Of a stretch of 64,000 nucleotides of DNA, positions 2,034-57,168 are shown one piece after another. The DNA lies in contig NZ_JANKBZ010000021.1 of assembly GCF_024623785.1 (NCBI RefSeq), positions 124,001 to 188,000 on the forward strand, given 5' to 3'. The DNA comes from Archangium lipolyticum. GTDB taxonomy: Bacteria > Myxococcota > Myxococcia > Myxococcales > Myxococcaceae. The translations under genes were made by a program, and so were the position numbers. The notes below the pieces were generated by a model. That model was not told the DNA's origin and searched no databases. It was given only the letters and a program-made list of their open reading frames with translations. Position 1 is the stretch's first letter, and each line of letters opens with the position of its first letter.

Positions 2034-4051
2034 AACGTCTGCTCCGGCCTCTCTGCCTCGCCACCCTCGGGCTCACCCTGGCCTGGGCGACCCCCTCGCC
2101 CGCCCAGAGCTTCGAGGGTCTGGATCTCTCCCAGTCCTCCAAGAAGAAGAAGAAGAAGCCCACCCGCAAGCCCGCGCGCGGCAAGAAGTCCCCGGCCGCC
2201 CAGGCCCAGGACGATGACTCCGGCTCGGATTCGAGCTCGGACGCCAGCGCTTCCGGCGACACGTCCACTCCGGGCACCACCCCCGCCGACACGGGGACGG
2301 CTTCCTCTCCAGCTGCCCCGGCCGCCCCGGCCGGAGACGCGGCCGCGTCCAACCCGTCCATGGGGTTGGATCTGACGGCCGAGACCCCCAGCGCCCCCAA
2401 GGCCGCGCCCACCATGTCCTTCGACGCGGTGGACGTGTCCGGCAAGAGCGGTGATCGCCAGCGCCTGGACGTGGCCATCTCGCTCTTCAAGAACGAGGAG
2501 TACGAGAAGGCGGCGATGAGCTCCTTCGAGATGCTCCAGGACGCCAAGCTCGCCGGCCTCCACCTCGAGGCGCGCTACGTGCTGGCCAAGTCCCTCTACC
2601 GTATGGGGCTCTACCACTCGTCACTGGGCGAGTTCTCGAAGATCCTCGCCGTCGGTCCGGAGACGAAGTTCTTCCGCACCAGCCTCGAGTGGCTCTTCTT
2701 CATCAGCCGCAAGACGAAGAACGAGACCGTCATCCTGGATGAGATCGCCCGCTACGCGAACCAGGAGTTCCCCGAGCGCTTCCGCAGCGAGTTCCACTAC
2801 CTGCTGGCCCGCTACCACTTCGTGCGTGGCAAGGCGCTGGACCAGGTGGGCCGCAAGGAGGACGCGGACAAGAGCTTCAGCGAGGTGAAGCGGCTGGCGC
2901 TGCTCATCCCGAAGACGGATCCGTTCTACCCGAGGACCAAGTACCTCGAGGGTCTGGCCTTCTTCCGCTTCGGCAACCAGGCCAAGAACGCCGCCGAGAA
3001 GCGCGTGGACATCAACACCGTGGGCGCCATCGACGCGATGAAGGAGATCGTCCGCGTCACCCGCTCCACGGCCGGTCTGGACGCCGAGCAGATCGCCTTC
3101 AACCAGAAGCTGCGCGAGCTGGCCTTCATGCAGCTGGCCCGTACCCACTACGGCATGCAGCAGAACCGCTACGCGCTCTTCTATTTCAACAAGGTGGAGC
3201 GCGGCACCTCGCAGTGGCTGGAGGCCATGTTCGAGGCCAGCTGGGCCAACTACCGCGTGGGCCAGTACGAGCAGGCGCTCGGCAACCTCATCACGCTCTC
3301 CTCGCCCTTCTTCCGCGAGGAGTACTTCCCCGAGGCGATGATCCTCAAGGCGGTCATCTATTACGAGAACTGCCGCTACCGCGAGTCCAGCCTCATCCTC
3401 CAGGACTTCGAGCGCACCTATCTGCCCGTGCATGATCAGCTCGAGCTGATCACCAAGAAGCAGATGAACGCGAGCGAGTACTACGGCGTGCTCTCCGACG
3501 TGCAGAAGAAGAACAAGGAAGGGCTGGAGAAGAGCCAGACGGACGTCATCCTCGAGCGCATCCTCCGGCTGGCCCTCACGGATCAGGACCTGAAGAAGAC
3601 GAACGACTCCATCCTCGAGCTGGAAGGGGAGATGGACATCTTCGGGGAGAAGGGCGACACCTTCCGCTACTCCGAGCTGTCCAAGCAGCTGCTCGAGGGC
3701 CTGAAGACCCAGCGCACCGCCCTCATCGAGAAGGCCGGCATCATGGCCAAGGGCAAGCTGGAGACGGAGCTGGTCGGACTCAAGCAGCTGCTGGCCAACG
3801 GCCTGCGCATCAAGTTCGAGACCGTCTCCAAGGAGAAGGAGTTCCTCGAGGAGCAGCTCAAGGCTGGCGGCAACGTCTCCGTCGTGAAGAAGTACCGCTT
3901 CTCCGTGGCGGTGGCGGACGATCAGCTCTACTGGCCGTACGAGGGTGAGTACTGGCGCGACGAGCTGGGCACCTACCAGTACACGATGACCAAGGGCTGC
4001 ATCCAGCGCGACACCGCGAACCGGACGATCCAGGCCAGCGAGAGCAACTGA
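2030..4051 (+). CDS. gltC: periplasmic TPR-like protein of the gliding machinery, GltC
   Basis: A 673-residue protein with signal peptide (cleaved near residue 25, after SPA), then a Lys-rich segment (KKKKKKPTRKPARGKK, about 38-53) and a long acidic/Ser/Pro linker. From about residue 140 the protein is helical with TPR-like repeats (for example LFKNEEYEKAAMSSFEML and YRVGQYEQALGNL). The C-terminal 200 residues are charged and probably coiled. In M. xanthus GltC is a periplasmic TPR protein that interacts with GltA and GltB in the gliding motor. Last gene of the operon; a perfect 10-bp hairpin follows 14 bases after the stop. Confidence 0.78.
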   Translation: MKRLLRPLCLATLGLTLAWATPSPAQSFEGLDLSQSSKKKKKKPTRKPARGKKSPAAQAQDDDSGSDSSSDASASGDTSTPGTTPADTGTASSPAAPAAPAGDAAASNPSMGLDLTAETPSAPKAAPTMSFDAVDVSGKSGDRQRLDVAISLFKNEEYEKAAMSSFEMLQDAKLAGLHLEARYVLAKSLYRMGLYHSSLGEFSKILAVGPETKFFRTSLEWLFFISRKTKNETVILDEIARYANQEFPERFRSEFHYLLARYHFVRGKALDQVGRKEDADKSFSEVKRLALLIPKTDPFYPRTKYLEGLAFFRFGNQAKNAAEKRVDINTVGAIDAMKEIVRVTRSTAGLDAEQIAFNQKLRELAFMQLARTHYGMQQNRYALFYFNKVERGTSQWLEAMFEASWANYRVGQYEQALGNLITLSSPFFREEYFPEAMILKAVIYYENCRYRESSLILQDFERTYLPVHDQLELITKKQMNASEYYGVLSDVQKKNKEGLEKSQTDVILERILRLALTDQDLKKTNDSILELEGEMDIFGEKGDTFRYSELSKQLLEGLKTQRTALIEKAGIMAKGKLETELVGLKQLLANGLRIKFETVSKEKEFLEEQLKAGGNVSVVKKYRFSVAVADDQLYWPYEGEYWRDELGTYQYTMTKGCIQRDTANRTIQASESN

Positions 4052-4065
4052 GCCCGCGCCCAGGC

Positions 4066-4089
4066 GGCTCCCACCACCCGGTGGGAGCC
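4066..4089 (+). terminator. hairpin downstream of gltC
   Basis: GGCTCCCACC (4066-4075) pairs perfectly with GGTGGGAGCC (4080-4089) around a four-base ACCC loop. It sits 14 bases after the gltC stop and before plsX. No U-run follows, so intrinsic termination is plausible but unproven. Confidence 0.55.
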
Positions 4090-4173
4090 TCCCGGCACCG
4101 TCCTCCACCGGGGGCTGGATCCGAGCGGGTCCGGCCCCCTCGTCATTCTACAAACCTGTAAGATGGTGCTTTC

Positions 4174-5202
4174 ATGGCCACCAAGCTCGTCACCATTGCG
4201 TTCGACGTGATGGGGAGCGACCACGGCCCCGCGGAGGTAGTCAGGGGGGCCGCGCAGCTCTCATTGGAATCACCGCACATCCACACGTTGCTCGTGGGGG
4301 ACAGGGCCGTCATCGACAACGCGCTCGCGGAGACGAAGCACAACGGCGAGCGCATCTCCGTGCAGCACGCCTCCGAGCAGATCTCCATGACCGAGAAGCC
4401 TGGTGAGGCGCTGGCGCGCAAGCCGGATGCGTCCGTGTCGGTGGCGGCGCGGCTGGTGGCCGAGGGCGAGGCGGACGCGCTCGTGTCGGCCGGCAACACG
4501 GGGGCGTGCGTGCTGTCGTGTGCCCGCCACTTCCAGCTGCTGCCGGGAGTGCGGCGCGCGGCGCTGGCGTCGGTGTACCCGACGCGCGCGCGCCACGGTG
4601 ACAAGGATGATCCGTTCTCGCTCATCCTCGACGTGGGAGCCACGGTGGAGGCCACCGCGGACGACCTGGTGACATTCGCGGTGATGGGGTCGGCGTACGC
4701 GCGCATCATCTCGCGCAACGAGAATCCCAAGGTGGCGCTGCTCTCCAATGGCACCGAGCCCAACAAGGGGCCGCGCCAGGTGGTGGAGGCGCACGCGCGG
4801 CTGGCGAGCCTGCCCGGACTCCAGTTCATCGGGAACGTGGAGGGCGTGGACATCCCCAAGGGCACGGCGGACGTGGTGGTGACGGACGGCTTCGTCGGCA
4901 ACGTGTGCCTGAAGATGTTGGAGGGAGTGCACGAGACGGTGGTGGAGCTGGCTCAGTACGCGTACAAGGAGAGCCTGCGCTGGAGGGCCGGTCTGGCGAT
5001 GCTGTCCGGTGGCATCCAGCGCATCAAGGACATCACCGACTGGGAGCAATACGGGGGAGCACCGGTGCTGGGGTTCGATCGCATCTTCATCAAGGCCCAC
5101 GGACGCTCGCGCTCCCGGGCCATCGCCAACGCGGGCAAGGTGGCCGCCAAGGCGGTGTCCCATGAGCTGGGCAAGGCCATCCAGCAGGGTCTGGCGCGGT
5201 GA
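4174..5202 (+). CDS. plsX: phosphate acyltransferase PlsX
   Basis: A 342-residue protein, the usual PlsX length. It makes acyl-phosphate from acyl-ACP, the first step of phosphatidic acid synthesis with PlsY. Visible family motifs: DVMGSDHGP near the N-terminus, SAGNTGA (about 107-113), NGTEPNKG (about 189-196), then NVEGVDI and VVTDGFVGNV, and YGGAPVLG near the end. The usual neighbours rpmF and fabH are absent here. Its stop overlaps the GTG of the next gene (GTGA, 5199-5202), so the HAD phosphatase downstream is probably co-translated. Confidence 0.95.
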   Translation: MATKLVTIAFDVMGSDHGPAEVVRGAAQLSLESPHIHTLLVGDRAVIDNALAETKHNGERISVQHASEQISMTEKPGEALARKPDASVSVAARLVAEGEADALVSAGNTGACVLSCARHFQLLPGVRRAALASVYPTRARHGDKDDPFSLILDVGATVEATADDLVTFAVMGSAYARIISRNENPKVALLSNGTEPNKGPRQVVEAHARLASLPGLQFIGNVEGVDIPKGTADVVVTDGFVGNVCLKMLEGVHETVVELAQYAYKESLRWRAGLAMLSGGIQRIKDITDWEQYGGAPVLGFDRIFIKAHGRSRSRAIANAGKVAAKAVSHELGKAIQQGLAR

Positions 5203-50238: not shown

Positions 50239-50396
50239 AGGCGCTTGACGCTCCGGGCTCTCTCCACTGTGTGAGTCCGCTTGGCGGAGTTCGAGGGCTC
50301 CCACCTGCCAAAACGGGATAGAACGCCATGTCCGCGAACGCGCTCGCCTGGCCGGTGACGCCTTCGCGTATTCTCTCGCTCCGAAGAGGCGACCTG

Positions 50397-51806
50397 ATGC
50401 CTGAGCACATCGTCCAGTTGAGTGCCTCGGGTGCGCGGCCGTACTCGCGCGTGGGCGCTCTGGCTCTGTCGCTGCTGATGTTGCTGAGTGCGTGCGCCTC
50501 GGGGGCACCTCCTGCTCGAGTGGTGACCGCGGACCGCGCTCCGCCGTTGACGGCGTGGGAGTCCCTGGAGACACGTGGCGGGGGAGAAGCGGTCTTCACC
50601 ACGCTGCCCACGGACTTCGAACCGGTGCGGGTGAGTGGCGCGGAGTTTCAGGGCGCGCTGGTGGCGCTGCTGCTCGACATACCGCTGCGGGTCGCCAGTT
50701 CCCGCCCGCCGCTGTACGTGGGCCAGAAGCTGGCGCTCGCCTCCGTGCCTCTCGTGGGGGAACAGTGGCGTTCGGAGCTGGCGCGAGCTTACGGACGCTT
50801 CTGCGAGCGGCGCGGCACTCCGGGCGATTGTCTGACGCTGTTCGATGACGGGCCCGGCCTGGAGGCCAAGGACAAGCGCGGCATCGCCCTGGCGCTGGCC
50901 GTGGGCCCGGCCCTGGATGCCCGCGATGCCGAGCTGCGGGCCATGCTCTCCTCCACGCAGTTGTGGACGACGGTGAGCATCACCCTCTCGGCCTATCTGG
51001 CGCTCTTGATTGCGCCCGAGCCGGTCTCCAAGGGCGTGGCCAGCGTGTTGACCCTGGTGATGTGGGGTTACCTCGGGTGGGAGTTCTTCGACCTGATACG
51101 GGCCTACGTACGGTTGTCGGAGGAGTCGGAACGGGCCACCACTTTCGAGGAGCTGCGCGAGGCGGGGGAGCGCTTCGGGAAGGTCATCGGGCCCAACAGC
51201 GTCCGCATCCTCGTCATGCTGGGCACGGCGGCGCTGGGCGACACGGCGGCGCTCGTGTCCAGGGGGCCGAAGTTGCCAGGCTTCGGACAGGCCGCGCGCG
51301 TGGTGGAGGCCCGCACCGGCATGCGCTTGATGGACGCGGCGGCCGGGACCGAGCGGGTCATCATGTCCATCCCCGAGGGCACCATCCGCGTCGTGCTCCC
51401 CGCCAATGCCTTTTCAATGTCCGCATTGAAGGGTGATGGTGGGCGCCCGGCGGGCAACGGAGGTGGAGGGCTCAAGCAGGGCAGGCTCCTTCCCAACGGC
51501 CATCGTGCCTTCGAGTCATTCAGAGACTTCAAGGACTTCATGGGCCCGGCTGGCAAGGACAAGCAGTGGCATCACATCGTCGAGCAGCACCAGGGCAATC
51601 TCCAGAGATTCGGCCCCGAGGCCCTGCACAATACGGAAAATGTCGTCTCGATAGACGCGACAACGCATACGAGAATATCGTCGTTGTATTCCTCGAAACC
51701 GACGGGTTGGAAGATGACAATCCGGCAGTGGTTGAGTCAGCAGTCCTATGAGGCGCAGCGGGAGTACGGTCTGTCTGTCCTGCGCGACTTGGGGGTCATT
51801 CCATGA
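50397..51806 (+). CDS. SitA-type polymorphic lipoprotein toxin with HNH-like C-terminal domain
   Basis: A 469-residue protein; the ATG at 50397 has AGAGG upstream. Lipobox LSAC (Cys about 33). The N-terminal 340 residues match what I recall of the SitA5-family myxobacterial lipoprotein toxins (VVTADRAPPLTAWESLETRG, later a hydrophobic hairpin LWTTVSITLSAYLALLI). The C-terminal domain contains QWHHIVEQH, HNTENV and DATTHTRISSLY, an HNH-like metal-nuclease pattern. SitA toxins are passed between kin by outer-membrane exchange. The C-terminal domain uses many rare AT-rich codons (ATA, AGA, AAT), unlike the rest, a sign of domain swapping. Coupled to its immunity gene by ATGA. Confidence 0.78.
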   Translation: MPEHIVQLSASGARPYSRVGALALSLLMLLSACASGAPPARVVTADRAPPLTAWESLETRGGGEAVFTTLPTDFEPVRVSGAEFQGALVALLLDIPLRVASSRPPLYVGQKLALASVPLVGEQWRSELARAYGRFCERRGTPGDCLTLFDDGPGLEAKDKRGIALALAVGPALDARDAELRAMLSSTQLWTTVSITLSAYLALLIAPEPVSKGVASVLTLVMWGYLGWEFFDLIRAYVRLSEESERATTFEELREAGERFGKVIGPNSVRILVMLGTAALGDTAALVSRGPKLPGFGQAARVVEARTGMRLMDAAAGTERVIMSIPEGTIRVVLPANAFSMSALKGDGGRPAGNGGGGLKQGRLLPNGHRAFESFRDFKDFMGPAGKDKQWHHIVEQHQGNLQRFGPEALHNTENVVSIDATTHTRISSLYSSKPTGWKMTIRQWLSQQSYEAQREYGLSVLRDLGVIP

Positions 51807-52168
51807 GTCACCATGAAGGGCCTGCTGGTGAACCCGTGAAGAGTTTGATCGATAGGTACATCGAACTCGCGAAACTCCATGGTGTGGCATTGAGCGAGTT
51901 CGATCACAAGAAGGCCAACCGGTTGCACTCTCGCATCATGAAGGTCCATCGTGAACTGCTGGCCCTGGGGCCCGATGCCCAGGGCGCGTTCTTTTGTCTA
52001 TTGGAGCATCCCGACATCTCGGTTCGCTGTTGGGCGGCATCGCAGTCGCTGGACTCGATTCCTGAACGTGCCGAACCTGTTCTCAGGCAGATTGCCGCGG
52101 AGGGGCCAGTGCCTCTGAATATCAACGCGAGCACAGTGTTGATGGGATGGCGCTCGAATCCTTCATGA
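51803..52168 (+). CDS. DUF2019 immunity protein for the SitA-type toxin
   Basis: A 121-residue cytoplasmic helical protein. The pattern LIDRYIELAKLHGVAL, NRLHSRIMKVHRELLALG and LLEHPDISVRCWAASQSLDSIPERAEPVLRQIA is the HEAT-like DUF2019 family, frequently an immunity partner of polymorphic toxins. The start overlaps the toxin stop (ATGA, 51803-51806). Codon use is AT-richer than in housekeeping neighbours, as for the toxin domain. Convergent with the following lipoprotein gene, 15 bases away. Confidence 0.75.
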   Translation: MSHHEGPAGEPVKSLIDRYIELAKLHGVALSEFDHKKANRLHSRIMKVHRELLALGPDAQGAFFCLLEHPDISVRCWAASQSLDSIPERAEPVLRQIAAEGPVPLNINASTVLMGWRSNPS

Positions 52169-52183: not shown

Positions 52184-52930
52184 TCAAGGCCTCTTCACGT
52201 CATGGGAGACGAGCTCCTCGAGCCGCTCGCCGGTCTCCTTCACCTTGCCGATTCCTGGCACCAGCCAGTACGTGCGCTCGTCGCCTGGCTTGTCACCGCG
52301 CTTGCGCTTCACCCGGGTTGCGTTGGTGAAGGTTCCGGCTGGGGTGGTGACGGTCTCGTTCACCGCCTCCACACTCCACACGTACGTCTTGTCCTGGTCC
52401 TTCACCTCGCCATCATCGAAGTGCTTCTCCAACTCGCGGATGTCGGACGTGTAGCTCCACCCCACGGGCTGCTCCCGGGCGATCGACTTCACCGTCGCGG
52501 GGTTCCACGTCGTCACCTTCTCGAGCGTGTTGTCCTCCCGGTCCTCCTCGCGCAGGCGCACCACCAGCCCGTTCACGTCGGTGATCTGCCAGGACAGCTC
52601 CTCCTGGTGCGGCTGGATGCTGCGCACCGCGGTGGCCTTCATGGACGTCTCTGGCACCGTCTGCTCACCCAGCACCTCCACCCGCTTCTCGAAGGTGCCT
52701 TTCTTCGGGTCCGTGATGCGGTACGTCCACGTGGAGCCCTTCGTGAGCGGCCAGAGGCTCGTGAACGGCTCCTCTGTATCGGGATCCACCGGGTCTCCCG
52801 GCAGGTCCACCGTCCCATCCGGATTCGTCGTGGTCGGCTGCTCCTGTGATTGCCTGGGCAGGCTCCCGCCCTCTCCGCATCCCGTCCAACACGCCACCGC
52901 CACCAGCGCAGCCAACCCCCACCTCTTCAT
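52184..52930 (-). CDS. lipoprotein ending the polyphosphate-linked operon
   Basis: A 248-residue protein. Lipobox WTGC (Cys about 17). The linker is Pro/Asp-rich (GDPVDPDTEEPF), followed by a beta-rich domain (SLWPLTKGSTWTYRITDPKKG) of a type common in myxobacterial lipoproteins, with repeated charged strands such as LREEDREDNTLEKVT. No enzyme motif. The start overlaps the stop of the DUF4956 gene (ATGA). Function unknown. Confidence 0.75.
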   Translation of the reverse strand: MKRWGLAALVAVACWTGCGEGGSLPRQSQEQPTTTNPDGTVDLPGDPVDPDTEEPFTSLWPLTKGSTWTYRITDPKKGTFEKRVEVLGEQTVPETSMKATAVRSIQPHQEELSWQITDVNGLVVRLREEDREDNTLEKVTTWNPATVKSIAREQPVGWSYTSDIRELEKHFDDGEVKDQDKTYVWSVEAVNETVTTPAGTFTNATRVKRKRGDKPGDERTYWLVPGIGKVKETGERLEELVSHDVKRP

Positions 52931-53634
52931 CCCCGTTCCTCCCAGCCGCCCTTCCGGGCCGGCATCTCCGACCACCTCAGTCCCCGGATCGGGCCGCCCG
53001 CGGACCGGCCCAGCGCCGATGCGAGCACTCCCGGCTCCTTCTCCTCCACCTCGAGCTCCAACCGCCGGCCGTCGAAGTCCAGCGCGCAGCTGCGCACCAG
53101 CACGTTGCGCTCGCCGAGCTTCTGCCTCAGCCACTCCTCCGCGCCCGCCAGGTCATCCGCCTGCGCCGACACCAGCATCCGCTGCTTCGCGGCGGTGGGC
53201 TCCTTCTTCTCGAAGAAGTCCAACACGAACAGCAGCACGCCGACGAAGAGGGTCCCCACCCCGGCCAGTCCCAGGCTGCCGTGTCCGCAGGCCATGCCCA
53301 GGCCAATCACCAGGAAGAGGATGGCGGCATCGCGCGGGTCCTTCAGTCCGGAGCGGAAGCGCACGAAGCCGCCGAGCCCCACCAGTCCGAAGGCCTTGGC
53401 CATGCTGTTGCCGATGACGGCGGTGATGACGGCCGCCGCGGTGCACAGCAGCACCTGGGCCTGCACCATGTCCGCCCGGGGCAGGGGCTTGCCGGTGAGG
53501 AGCCGCCACGGCCGCAGCGCGAGCACCAGGCCGATGGCCACCGCCGCCAGCAGGCGGGGCACCATCAGGCGCGCGTCGTGGAGGGAAACCCCGGACGACA
53601 CATCGTTGGCCAGCTCGGAGAAGAACGAGTCCAT
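52927..53634 (-). CDS. DUF4956 membrane protein (MgtC-like)
   Basis: A 235-residue protein. Four or five hydrophobic helices in the first 140 residues (LLAAVAIGLVLAL, then AQVLLCTAAAVITAVIGNSMAKAFGLVG), with the conserved FRSGLKDPRDAA, then a cytoplasmic alpha/beta tail. DUF4956 proteins are commonly encoded beside VTC-domain polyphosphate polymerases, as here. AAGGAG precedes the ATG. A role in polyphosphate or ion handling is inferred from context. Confidence 0.8.
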   Translation of the reverse strand: MDSFFSELANDVSSGVSLHDARLMVPRLLAAVAIGLVLALRPWRLLTGKPLPRADMVQAQVLLCTAAAVITAVIGNSMAKAFGLVGLGGFVRFRSGLKDPRDAAILFLVIGLGMACGHGSLGLAGVGTLFVGVLLFVLDFFEKKEPTAAKQRMLVSAQADDLAGAEEWLRQKLGERNVLVRSCALDFDGRRLELEVEEKEPGVLASALGRSAGGPIRGLRWSEMPARKGGWEERG

Positions 53635-53652: not shown

Positions 53653-55359
53653 TCAAAGCGTGGGCCGCGGGGCGTCGTCCCCGGGCGAAAGGAGTGCCGC
53701 GCGCTCCGAGGGGAGCACGGCCGCGTGGGCGGCGGCGACGATGCGGTAGGCATTGCGCAGCACGGGCAGGCGGCCGGAGGTGAGCTCCAGCGCGCGCAGC
53801 ACGAGGGCCTCGGCGCGCTCCGTCAGGGGCAGGCCCTCGAGCGAGGACACCACCGTGGCGGGCCAGCGTGTCACGAAGGCCTCGCGCAGCCGCCACGCGC
53901 GGGGGTCATCCAACCCGTCCAGCGAGTCGAGGGCCTCCTTCGTCAGCGGGGCGCCGCGCTCGCGCAGGGCGAAGGACTCGTCGGTGGTGAGCCCGGTCAG
54001 CGAGCGCAGCACCAGCTTCAGGGCCTTGTCCTCCAGCGCCAGGCGCAACTCCCGCGCGAAGGGCGTGTCCAGGCCCTGGATGCTGCGCAGCACCGCCAGC
54101 CTGTCGTGGGCGAGCAGGCTCTCGCGCAGGGCGTCCGCCCGGGGCGAGCCGACGCCGATGAGGCTGCGCGCCACGTCCGCGTACAGCCCGCGCCGCACCC
54201 CCAGCTCGCGCGCCGCCCAGGCCGGCTCCTCGTCCACTCCGGCCAGGCCGCAGAGCACCTCTCCGAGGCGCCCCTCCCGCAGGGCGTGCTCGCGCAGGAC
54301 CCAGGCCTCGGGCGAGTCGTTGTGCTTGAGGCCCGAGAGCACCTCCGCGGGCGCGTGCTCGTAGAGACGCTCGCGCAGGGACATGGCCTGGGGTGACGGA
54401 TGGGTGCCGAGGCTCACGGCCACGTCCTGGGGAACCACCTCCGCCAGCAGCTCGCGCAGGGCCCGGGCCGGCTCGTCGTCCAGCCCCGTGAGGCTGCGCA
54501 CCGTGAGGCCCGGGAAGCGCTCCACGAAGCCCAGCCGCCGCTGGTGCGCGGCGAAGCCGGGGATGCCGCCCAGCAGCCACACGGCCAACTGGGGCTCGCG
54601 CACCTCCAACCCGTCCAGCGCGCGGAAGAAGTGCTCCTCCACGTCGTCCACCGTCGCTGGCACCTGCACCGGCGTGGGGCTCGGAGGCGTCACCCGCTGC
54701 GCTGGCAGCTCCCGCCCCTCCAGCCGCGCCACCACCGCCTCCACCAGGCGCTGCTCCAGCACGTGCAGCGGCTGATCATTGTTCTCGATGATGAGCCAGC
54801 GCGCCGGGTCCCTCCGGGCCAGGTCGAGGAAGGCCTCGCGCTGGCGCACCGTCAGGCCCGCACCGGCCAGCCCCTTGCGGCTGTCCGAGTCCGGCGTCCG
54901 CTCGCTCTTGTTCTTCCCCAGCCGCTTGCGCAGCCGGGCCAGCTCCGGCTCCACGTCCACCAGGATGACCAGGTCCGGCCATAGCCCCTGCGAGGCCAGC
55001 TCGCACGCGGGCGCGAGTGAATCCCAGGACAGCCCGCGCCCGCCGCCGCTGAGCGCCAGCTGCGAGTAGAGGTAGCGGTCGCTGATGCACACCTCGCCGC
55101 GCGCCAGGGCGGGGGCGATGACCTCCTCCAACTGCTGCGCGTCCCGGGCGAGGTTGAGGAAGAACTCGGTGCGCGGCGACATCTCCAGCAGCTTGGAGTC
55201 GCGGGTGAGGTCGCGGATGCGCCGGGCGATGGGCGAGCGCAGCTCTCCCCCCTCGCGCGCGTGCGCCACCCGGTAGCCGAGCCGCCGGAGCCGCGTCGCC
55301 AGGAGGTTGGACAAGGTTGTCTTGCCGCTGCCGTCAATGCCTTCGAAGTCGATGAACAC
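53653..55359 (-). CDS. tmk: thymidylate kinase fused to a long repeat domain
   Basis: A 568-residue protein from a GTG. Residues 1-215 are a thymidylate kinase: P-loop EGIDGSGKTT (6-15), CISDRYLYSQ (91-100) and a LID-type basic segment near 140-165. A linker (215-240) leads to about nine tandem copies of a 27-residue motif ending near 525. Each reads roughly V..SL.GL...A..LRE: for example VRSLTGLDDEPARALREL at 287 and VLRSIQGLDTPFAREL at 423. This looks like a HEAT-like or related helical repeat scaffold. Normal Tmk is about 210 residues. It starts seven bases after the VTC gene. Confidence 0.85.
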   Translation of the reverse strand: MFIDFEGIDGSGKTTLSNLLATRLRRLGYRVAHAREGGELRSPIARRIRDLTRDSKLLEMSPRTEFFLNLARDAQQLEEVIAPALARGEVCISDRYLYSQLALSGGGRGLSWDSLAPACELASQGLWPDLVILVDVEPELARLRKRLGKNKSERTPDSDSRKGLAGAGLTVRQREAFLDLARRDPARWLIIENNDQPLHVLEQRLVEAVVARLEGRELPAQRVTPPSPTPVQVPATVDDVEEHFFRALDGLEVREPQLAVWLLGGIPGFAAHQRRLGFVERFPGLTVRSLTGLDDEPARALRELLAEVVPQDVAVSLGTHPSPQAMSLRERLYEHAPAEVLSGLKHNDSPEAWVLREHALREGRLGEVLCGLAGVDEEPAWAARELGVRRGLYADVARSLIGVGSPRADALRESLLAHDRLAVLRSIQGLDTPFARELRLALEDKALKLVLRSLTGLTTDESFALRERGAPLTKEALDSLDGLDDPRAWRLREAFVTRWPATVVSSLEGLPLTERAEALVLRALELTSGRLPVLRNAYRIVAAAHAAVLPSERAALLSPGDDAPRPTL

Positions 55360-55365
55360 GGTTGC

Positions 55366-56079
55366 TCAGCCCCCCAGAATCCCGTCCGCGACGAAGTCGT
55401 GGACCCTCGCCATCCCCTCGGCGAACTTGCTGTACGCCGGCTTTCGCCCGGGGTGCAGGGCCGCGAGCCACTCGGGCAGCTCCTCCCCCAGGTGCTTCAC
55501 TTCCACCACCACGCGCCCGTCCAGGGCGAGTGGCTCGCCCAGCCGCTCCGCGCTCAGCGTCCTCTCGCCGAGCGCCAGCTCCGGCGTCACCCGGTGGAAG
55601 CCGATGTCCCGGTCCACCGTCACCCGCCAGGCCTGCGAGCACTGGTACACGTGCCGCCGGTACGTCACGGCCAGCACCGGGACGAGGTTGCCCCCCGCGA
55701 TGAGCGGCAGCAGGCGCACGCCTCCCTGGAGCACGGTGCCCAGCTGCGCGCGTGGTACCCAGACCCGGCGCTTCTGCGTGACGCCGTTGCGCTCGCGCTT
55801 CACCTCCAGCACCACGCGCTCCACGCCGCCGGCCCCCACGTCCGGCGAGTACTCCTTGGTGCGCACCTTGAGGCAGTCGTTCGGGGTGCCCAGGGCACGC
55901 ACGGCCAGCGGGTAGCCCGGCTTGTCGAAGTAGACGGAGGTGATGCGCGTGGGCGGCGGCAGGTAGTCGCCCAGCGAGGCGGAGAGTCTCGCGCACAGGG
56001 CCACCGCCGCTTCCCTCTCGATCACCAGCTTGAACTCCCGGCGCAACCGGGTGACTTCTCCTTCCGCGAACTGGAGCAT
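55366..56079 (-). CDS. VTC-domain polyphosphate polymerase
   Basis: A 237-residue protein. Family features of the VTC catalytic tunnel are visible: basic and acidic strands such as RREFKLVIER, ITSVYFD, LKVRTKEYS, VLEVKRERNGVTQKRR, VTYRRHVY and VVVEVKHLG. The VTC domain builds polyphosphate from ATP. Its start is preceded by GGAG. It lies between a phosphate-type porin gene and the Tmk-repeat fusion. Confidence 0.85.
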   Translation of the reverse strand: MLQFAEGEVTRLRREFKLVIEREAAVALCARLSASLGDYLPPPTRITSVYFDKPGYPLAVRALGTPNDCLKVRTKEYSPDVGAGGVERVVLEVKRERNGVTQKRRVWVPRAQLGTVLQGGVRLLPLIAGGNLVPVLAVTYRRHVYQCSQAWRVTVDRDIGFHRVTPELALGERTLSAERLGEPLALDGRVVVEVKHLGEELPEWLAALHPGRKPAYSKFAEGMARVHDFVADGILGG

Positions 56080-56097: not shown

Positions 56098-57168
56098 CTA
56101 GAAGCGGGTGGCGAGCTGCAGCGAGTACTCGAAGCCTGGCGCCTCGTCCCCGGGACGCAGCGCGCGCTCGGCCTGGAACTGGGCCTTGAAGTGCTCCGAG
56201 TACAGGACGTTGAGGCCACCGACGAGGCCGTAGCCGCGGGCCTTCAAGGGGCCCTGGAGCTGCAACGACTCGGCGCCCACCACCGGCTGCAGCGCCCATC
56301 CCTCCAGGCCCACCGGCAGCGTGTAGCTGGCCAGCCCGAGCTGCGCGCTGAAGGTCCCCACGGCGAGCCGCCCGTTGACGTACTCGCCCGACACCTCCAG
56401 CCCGCCCAGGTGCAGCGTCGTGTCCGCGGCCACCGCGTGATGGCGGGTGCCCTGGAAGACCTGTGTGAGATAGGTGCTGGCCCCCACGGAGAGGAACTTC
56501 AGGGGACGCGCGCTCACCCGGAGTGCGGCGTCCTCGCTGGCGCGCACGCCGGTGTCATCGTCCTTGGCGCCCTGGAAGACGCCGCCGGACACCTTGAGCT
56601 TCCACACGTTCTTCAGGCTCACCTCGCCCATGAGCCCCAGCCGCCGGCCCCCCAGGTCGTGCTCGTCCTCCAGGTAGTCCGCCACCAGCCCGCGCCGCAT
56701 CAACGGGAGCTGCCAGGCCGACTCGAGCTCTCGCGCGAGGAAGGGGGCCTTGAACTGGCCGCCATAGAGGCGCAGCCGCTTCTTCCCGTCGGAGACGCGC
56801 AGGTAGGCGTCCTTGAGCATCGTCTTGGATGACAGGTCCGCGGTCACCTCCGCGTCCACATGGGACAGCGACGCGGCCAGTCCCACGCGCGCCGAGGGAA
56901 TGGACAGCGAGCGCTCGAACGCATTGCGCTCGTCCGCGCTCACCCGGGCGAAGACGCGCCCGAAGGGGCGGACCCGCAGGCCCTTCTTCTCCTCGCCCGC
57001 CGCCTTCTCCGCGTCGCTGGGCAGCGGCTCCTCTCCCACGCTGGTGGCCTCGGGCTTCGCCGCGTCCGCCGCCGGCTTCTGCTCCGCGGCCCAGACGGGC
57101 ATCCCCAAAAGGAGGACGGAGGCGAGGACTGCCCGCCTTCCCTTTCCGACCCCAAACCCCTCGCCCAT
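56098..57168 (-). CDS. OprO/OprP-like phosphate-selective porin
   Basis: A 356-residue exported protein. Signal peptide (AVLASVLLLGMPVWAAEQ), an acidic spacer (40-65), then porin sequence with alternating aromatic strands (GLRVRPFGRVFARV, LRLYGGQFKAPFLAREL, LMRRGLVADYL) and a terminal Phe (LQLATRF) typical of outer-membrane barrels. The ATG has GAGGAGG five bases upstream. It is the first gene of the operon, with a Pho-box-like site about 120 bases upstream. Selectivity for phosphate is inferred from family and neighbours. Confidence 0.82.
   Translation of the reverse strand: MGEGFGVGKGRRAVLASVLLLGMPVWAAEQKPAADAAKPEATSVGEEPLPSDAEKAAGEEKKGLRVRPFGRVFARVSADERNAFERSLSIPSARVGLAASLSHVDAEVTADLSSKTMLKDAYLRVSDGKKRLRLYGGQFKAPFLARELESAWQLPLMRRGLVADYLEDEHDLGGRRLGLMGEVSLKNVWKLKVSGGVFQGAKDDDTGVRASEDAALRVSARPLKFLSVGASTYLTQVFQGTRHHAVAADTTLHLGGLEVSGEYVNGRLAVGTFSAQLGLASYTLPVGLEGWALQPVVGAESLQLQGPLKARGYGLVGGLNVLYSEHFKAQFQAERALRPGDEAPGFEYSLQLATRF

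Follow-up and report, generated by a model that had tools for sequence, protein, structure and literature searches.

A thymidylate kinase-fold protein fused to an alpha-solenoid, probably an undescribed part of the VTC-type polyphosphate machinery in soil bacteria of two phyla

In the parts available to us of the two papers that describe the closest known gene sets, CotH, polyphosphate polymerase and DUF4956 genes adjoin the pel clusters of Gram-positive bacteria (PMC7112168) and VTC and CotH genes occur in the NELoc-2 locus of Clostridium perfringens (PMC2879425), and no kinase of the thymidylate kinase (TMK)-solenoid type is named for either set. The loci reported here share with these sets the adjacent VTC and DUF4956 genes, and CotH in one of two cassette types (B) and in many Planctomycetota loci, but add a protein in which a TMK-fold kinase is fused to an alpha-solenoid (the kinase-solenoid); those of Myxococcota further include an OprO/P-like porin and a lipoprotein. 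A VTC domain with its tunnel residues and a likely membrane-coupled synthesis are held in common with the eukaryotic VTC complex (Vtc4), from which the bacterial cassette differs in lacking an SPX domain and in having a separate small membrane protein, DUF4956, and a kinase-solenoid partner. PPK2, which is of shared ancestry with TMK (PMC8776046), resembles the kinase-solenoid as a P-loop kinase that is related to TMK and linked to polyphosphate; membership of the kinase-solenoid in PPK2 was ruled out by the absence of a PPK2 profile match in a Pfam scan with E-values up to 1, and the genome studied here encodes its own PPK2, together with two PPK1-type genes. The TMK-solenoid fusion is not described in the literature searched on VTC with DUF4956 or on a TMK-VTC link, and in that literature bacterial VTC proteins, like their CotH/DUF4956 partners, seem to have received little study. 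In soil bacteria of two phyla, the kinase-solenoid probably belongs to the polyphosphate machinery as a component not described before; it has a fixed architecture, a neighbourhood conserved over both phyla and a rebuilt acceptor pocket. We favour, with a probability of roughly 0.6, the reading that it serves a Gram-negative CotH-VTC-DUF4956 cassette as a dedicated cytosolic subunit, namely a non-dTMP kinase tied to VTC.

Architecture of the kinase-solenoid and its cassette

The stretch of DNA analysed (the window) comprises 64,000 nucleotides of Archangium lipolyticum (GCF_024623785.1, contig NZ_JANKBZ010000021.1, positions 124,001–188,000, forward strand). An earlier note on this sequence had described a TMK-like kinase with a repeat array at 53653–55359, and an open reading frame is present there (568 aa, GTG start; minus strand, as are all features of the protein and its cassette given below), which begins right at the P-loop strand and matches Pfam Thymidylate_kin (PF02223) over residues 5–196 (E = 1.1e-27). 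The kinase domain (residues 1–213, 54721–55359) has a TMK fold, with Foldseek matches to solved TMKs at TMt 0.82–0.91, and contains the P-loop GIDGSGKT (residues 7–14, 55318–55341). It is followed by an alpha-solenoid (residues 237–548, 53716–54651) composed of nine 27-residue two-helix repeats (269–513) and cap helices. AlphaFold, with 35 natural sequences as input, modelled the whole protein with a pLDDT of 91.1 and a pTM of 0.89. In the 51-row set, members not truncated by a contig end are 540–585 aa long, with the exception of L258 (525 aa as extracted), and because complete members nearly all fall within this range the copy number of the solenoid looks fixed.

Among periods of 5–89 residues, 27 was the best for the repeats and exceeded all 3000 composition shuffles, and within 20–39 it was the best in 35 of 35 aligned members. 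Modelled alone, the solenoid region reached a pLDDT of 95.9 and showed nine repeats of two helices each, closed by a capping pair, the long helices beginning at residues 269, 296, 323, 350, 378, 406, 433, 460, 486 and 514. The nine-copy, 27-residue repeat proposed earlier is thus borne out by a periodicity beyond chance and by regular helix pairs in the AlphaFold model, a confident fold that speaks against unstructured repeats. The repeat positions given at that time (287, 313, 339, 367, 396, 423, 450, 476 and 503) lie at most one residue from the Val or Leu of the second helix (V287, V313, V340, V368, V396, V423, V450, L477 and V503); the array itself stands, and its extent, previously put at about 310 residues past the kinase, is corrected to about 269–513 plus caps. 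The solenoid has two-helix repeats with a conserved Arg in common with HEAT/ARM-type alpha-solenoids, but differs from them in its 27-residue unit and in matching none at the level of family: no Pfam repeat family matched it in any of 35 members, no PDB sequence family covers the repeat, and Foldseek against the PDB returned nothing at E < 1e-3, just generic ARM/HEAT/TPR-like and proteasome-subunit solenoids. The conserved Arg forms a ladder of one residue per repeat (275, 302, 329, 356, 384, 412, 439, 466 and 492) that is nearly invariant in 51 members. By sequence pattern it points inward from the first helix, no acidic partner is conserved to the same degree, and it is retained in L094, a member from a genome (G157) in which no VTC was found; for these reasons this Arg is more likely to be structural than ligand-binding.

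The window cassette is a tight operon ordered porin–VTC–kinase-solenoid–DUF4956–lipoprotein, in which successive genes lie 18, 6 and 18 bases apart and the last two overlap by 4 bases. The VTC-domain polyphosphate polymerase (55366–56079, 237 aa; PF09359, E = 3.2e-17), whose closest solved relative is Vtc4, directly adjoins the kinase gene, as had been noted before, although the distance from the VTC stop to the GTG is 6 bases and not seven. E, K and R at the tunnel positions are invariant in the eight VTC neighbours that align with Vtc4, the VTC neighbours match catalytic Vtc4 best, and judged by these residues the neighbouring VTC protein would be catalytically competent. The cassette further encodes an OprO/OprP-like outer-membrane porin with an N-terminal signal-like segment (56098–57168), which gave a weak Pfam match and whose homologue in the B cassette clears the Porin_O_P cut-off, an MgtC-like DUF4956 membrane protein (52927–53634; PF16316, E = 2.8e-11; MgtC, E = 0.0022), and a small lipoprotein (52184–52930), which overlaps the DUF4956 stop with its start, shows a weak below-cut-off DUF3108-like match and is conserved in cassettes of the window type (A). 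In the second cassette (B) of the same genome the order is CotH–VTC–porin–kinase-solenoid–DUF4956, and its kinase-solenoid is 39% identical to that of the window; in the tree, the A- and B-cassette proteins form separate, fully supported clades. Next to the window cassette, a lipoprotein-like open reading frame with a WHHIVEQ-type C-terminus (50328–51806) is followed by an overlapping small one (51803–52168), and the two resemble a toxin-immunity pair.

Distribution and conservation of the neighbourhood

The fusion was searched for in 96 and 195 genomes, in a scan of genome contigs, and in 392 and 284 further genomes; neighbours were called with profiles built from the cassettes themselves, with Pfam checks on a sample. 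It was found across Myxococcales, in MAGs of other Myxococcota and in Planctomycetota (17 of the 392 sampled). Among the 90 distinct fusion loci, 80 had VTC within 4 kb on the same strand, 70 had DUF4956 and 86 had one or the other nearby, while CotH, present in many Planctomycetota loci and not seen adjoining window-type cassettes, was found in 24. All 12 Planctomycetota loci with useful flanks are among the linked ones. The tie to VTC suggested in the earlier note is therefore upheld by 80 of 90 loci in two phyla and by two VTC-bearing cassettes in the window's genome. In six of the ten loci without VTC, the contig breaks off on one side of the gene, no more than about 1.3 kb away; two (L219 and L220) are split cassettes with VTC elsewhere in the genome, and L141 and L094 are the remaining two. 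In two genomes, G067 and G042, the B cassette is split and the other half of the gene set lies elsewhere in the same genome. Five of the 75 Myxococcota fusion genomes had no Pfam VTC match (G066, G126, G127, G018 and G157); G066, G126 and G127 do carry VTC by homology, and in G018 the fusion is cut by a contig end. Relatives with the fusion and without VTC, which had been named beforehand as evidence against the link, thus came down to L094, the only locus whose genome yielded no VTC.

Several genomes without the fusion contain VTC-DUF4956 pairs, one of them with CotH, porin and lipoprotein genes nearby, and such pairs lacking the kinase-solenoid are common in Myxococcota. The kinase-solenoid is therefore not essential to the VTC-DUF4956 system, and, since these pairs exist without it, the fusion seems to have been added to a gene set that predates it. 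In the midpoint-rooted tree the members from Planctomycetota are not gathered in a single clade, which is still compatible with one origin. Individual loci carry additional genes: a PelG exopolysaccharide exporter (2698–4317) lies beside DUF4956 and the kinase-solenoid in L141, and a Na/Pi cotransporter is encoded inside the cassette in two others (L145:8305–10395 and L147:3019–4998).

The kinase pocket and the housekeeping tmk genes

The pocket was compared with that of ordinary TMKs from fetched loci and of a sequence which we take to be E. coli Tmk. Fold, P-loop, DR motif and phosphate-side arginine are common to the kinase-solenoid and dTMP kinase (TIGR00041, PF02223), and the catalytic residues D9, K13, D94 and R95 as well as R72 are invariant in 51 of 51 members. 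By contrast, the Arg that contacts thymine, corresponding to Mtb Arg74, which hydrogen-bonds the thymine ring (pocket residue roles from PMC3619541), is replaced by Asp or Glu in all 51 members in a gapless alignment of the helix; the stacking Phe is Asn or Tyr in 49 of 51, the Pro of the REP motif is absent, and the AYQG motif following DR is lost, its Tyr being Leu in 38 and His in 8 of the 51 members and never Tyr or Phe. A new, family-specific lid motif, SRKGL.G.G (SRKGLAGAG in the window, residues 160–168, 54856–54882), has R161 and K162 in 50 of 51 members. The sole exception is the divergent L094 from G157, the lone Myxococcota fusion genome (1 of 75) without a VTC found, a single case in which the coincidence of lid-motif loss and absent VTC is suggestive only. 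Further differences from dTMP kinase are the C-terminal solenoid and the presence of the kinase-solenoid in addition to a housekeeping tmk. Residue by residue, the acceptor pocket is rebuilt relative to TMK, despite which this group of proteins matches the NCBI dTMP kinase model, passing the cut-off of the NCBIfam equivalog TIGR00041 with 102–103 versus 83.25 bits. The earlier suggestion of a different substrate gains indirect support at the sequence level, as thymidine-recognition residues are lost, phosphate-binding and catalytic residues are kept, and an ordinary tmk coexists.

That separate housekeeping tmk lies elsewhere in the window's genome, so the fusion is not its only tmk, a possibility considered before. 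Another tmk beside the fusion was also found in the sampled Myxococcaceae and, at E < 1e-33, in 9 of 11 distant MAGs carrying the fusion; of the other two, G205 has just a weak second match and G204 none. The housekeeping Tmk of many Myxococcota has Thr for the Walker A Lys (GAGTTT) with the DR and AYQ motifs kept, for example in L001 (G000:C28:138144–138716), L181, L188, L192 and L196–L200, and this form occurs in genomes without the fusion too.

Possible roles of the kinase-solenoid

As a non-dTMP kinase tied to VTC, the kinase domain would actively transfer phosphate from ATP to a nucleotide other than dTMP or to a small phospho-compound. Its product would feed or gate the adjacent VTC enzyme as this makes polyphosphate at the inner membrane, with DUF4956 perhaps taking part in translocation there, and the solenoid, fixed in length, would anchor the kinase on the VTC/DUF4956 complex or on the substrate. 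The narrower proposal that the kinase makes a phosphorylated small molecule activating or supplying the VTC polymerase, with the new alpha-solenoid as docking arm, is tentative and of low probability. If true, it would represent a bacterial module for the control or feeding of VTC-type synthesis, analogous to inositol pyrophosphates and SPX domains in yeast. An idle kinase fold that binds a nucleotide or phospho-ligand as a sensor or allosteric VTC subunit, like the SPX domains in yeast, would also accord with the strong VTC linkage, the conserved basic lid motif and the loss of known acceptor recognition; pseudokinases, however, seldom retain all core catalytic residues, every one of which is invariant in the 51 members, and we regard this as rather unlikely.

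That the protein is a second genuine dTMP kinase with a helical arm, placed in the operon for nucleotide supply, is unlikely. The TIGR00041 score and the closeness of the fold to TMK argue for it, and a backup dTMP kinase is thinkable because the housekeeping Tmk has Thr for the Walker A Lys, but both the DR and the AYQ motif are kept in the housekeeping gene, which genomes lacking the fusion possess as well; the altered pocket and the presence of another tmk led us to drop a second housekeeping tmk as the main reading. Direct handling of polyphosphate, with the kinase using it as donor or acceptor like PPK2 and the Arg ladder binding the chain, draws on the shared ancestry of PPK2 and TMK (PMC8776046), the nearly invariant Arg at the same position in each repeat and the adjoining VTC gene. 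It is improbable given the missing PPK2 profile match, a solenoid that in most members carries a negative net charge or almost none, and the inward position of the ladder Arg and its retention in L094, which a structural role fits better. Many sampled genomes are closely related, as would suit a neighbourhood arising from chance or inheritance only, without a functional link; yet the linkage is found in two phyla and in two cassettes whose genes are arranged differently, and the pieces of split cassettes are retained in the genome, which makes this explanation extremely improbable.

As a non-dTMP kinase tied to VTC, the kinase-solenoid would offer a genetically tractable entry to bacterial VTC, with an orthologue in the model organism Myxococcus xanthus (L121). 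L116, titled Comamonas sp. KCTC 72670, pairs with M. xanthus in the tree, and its record is probably mislabelled.
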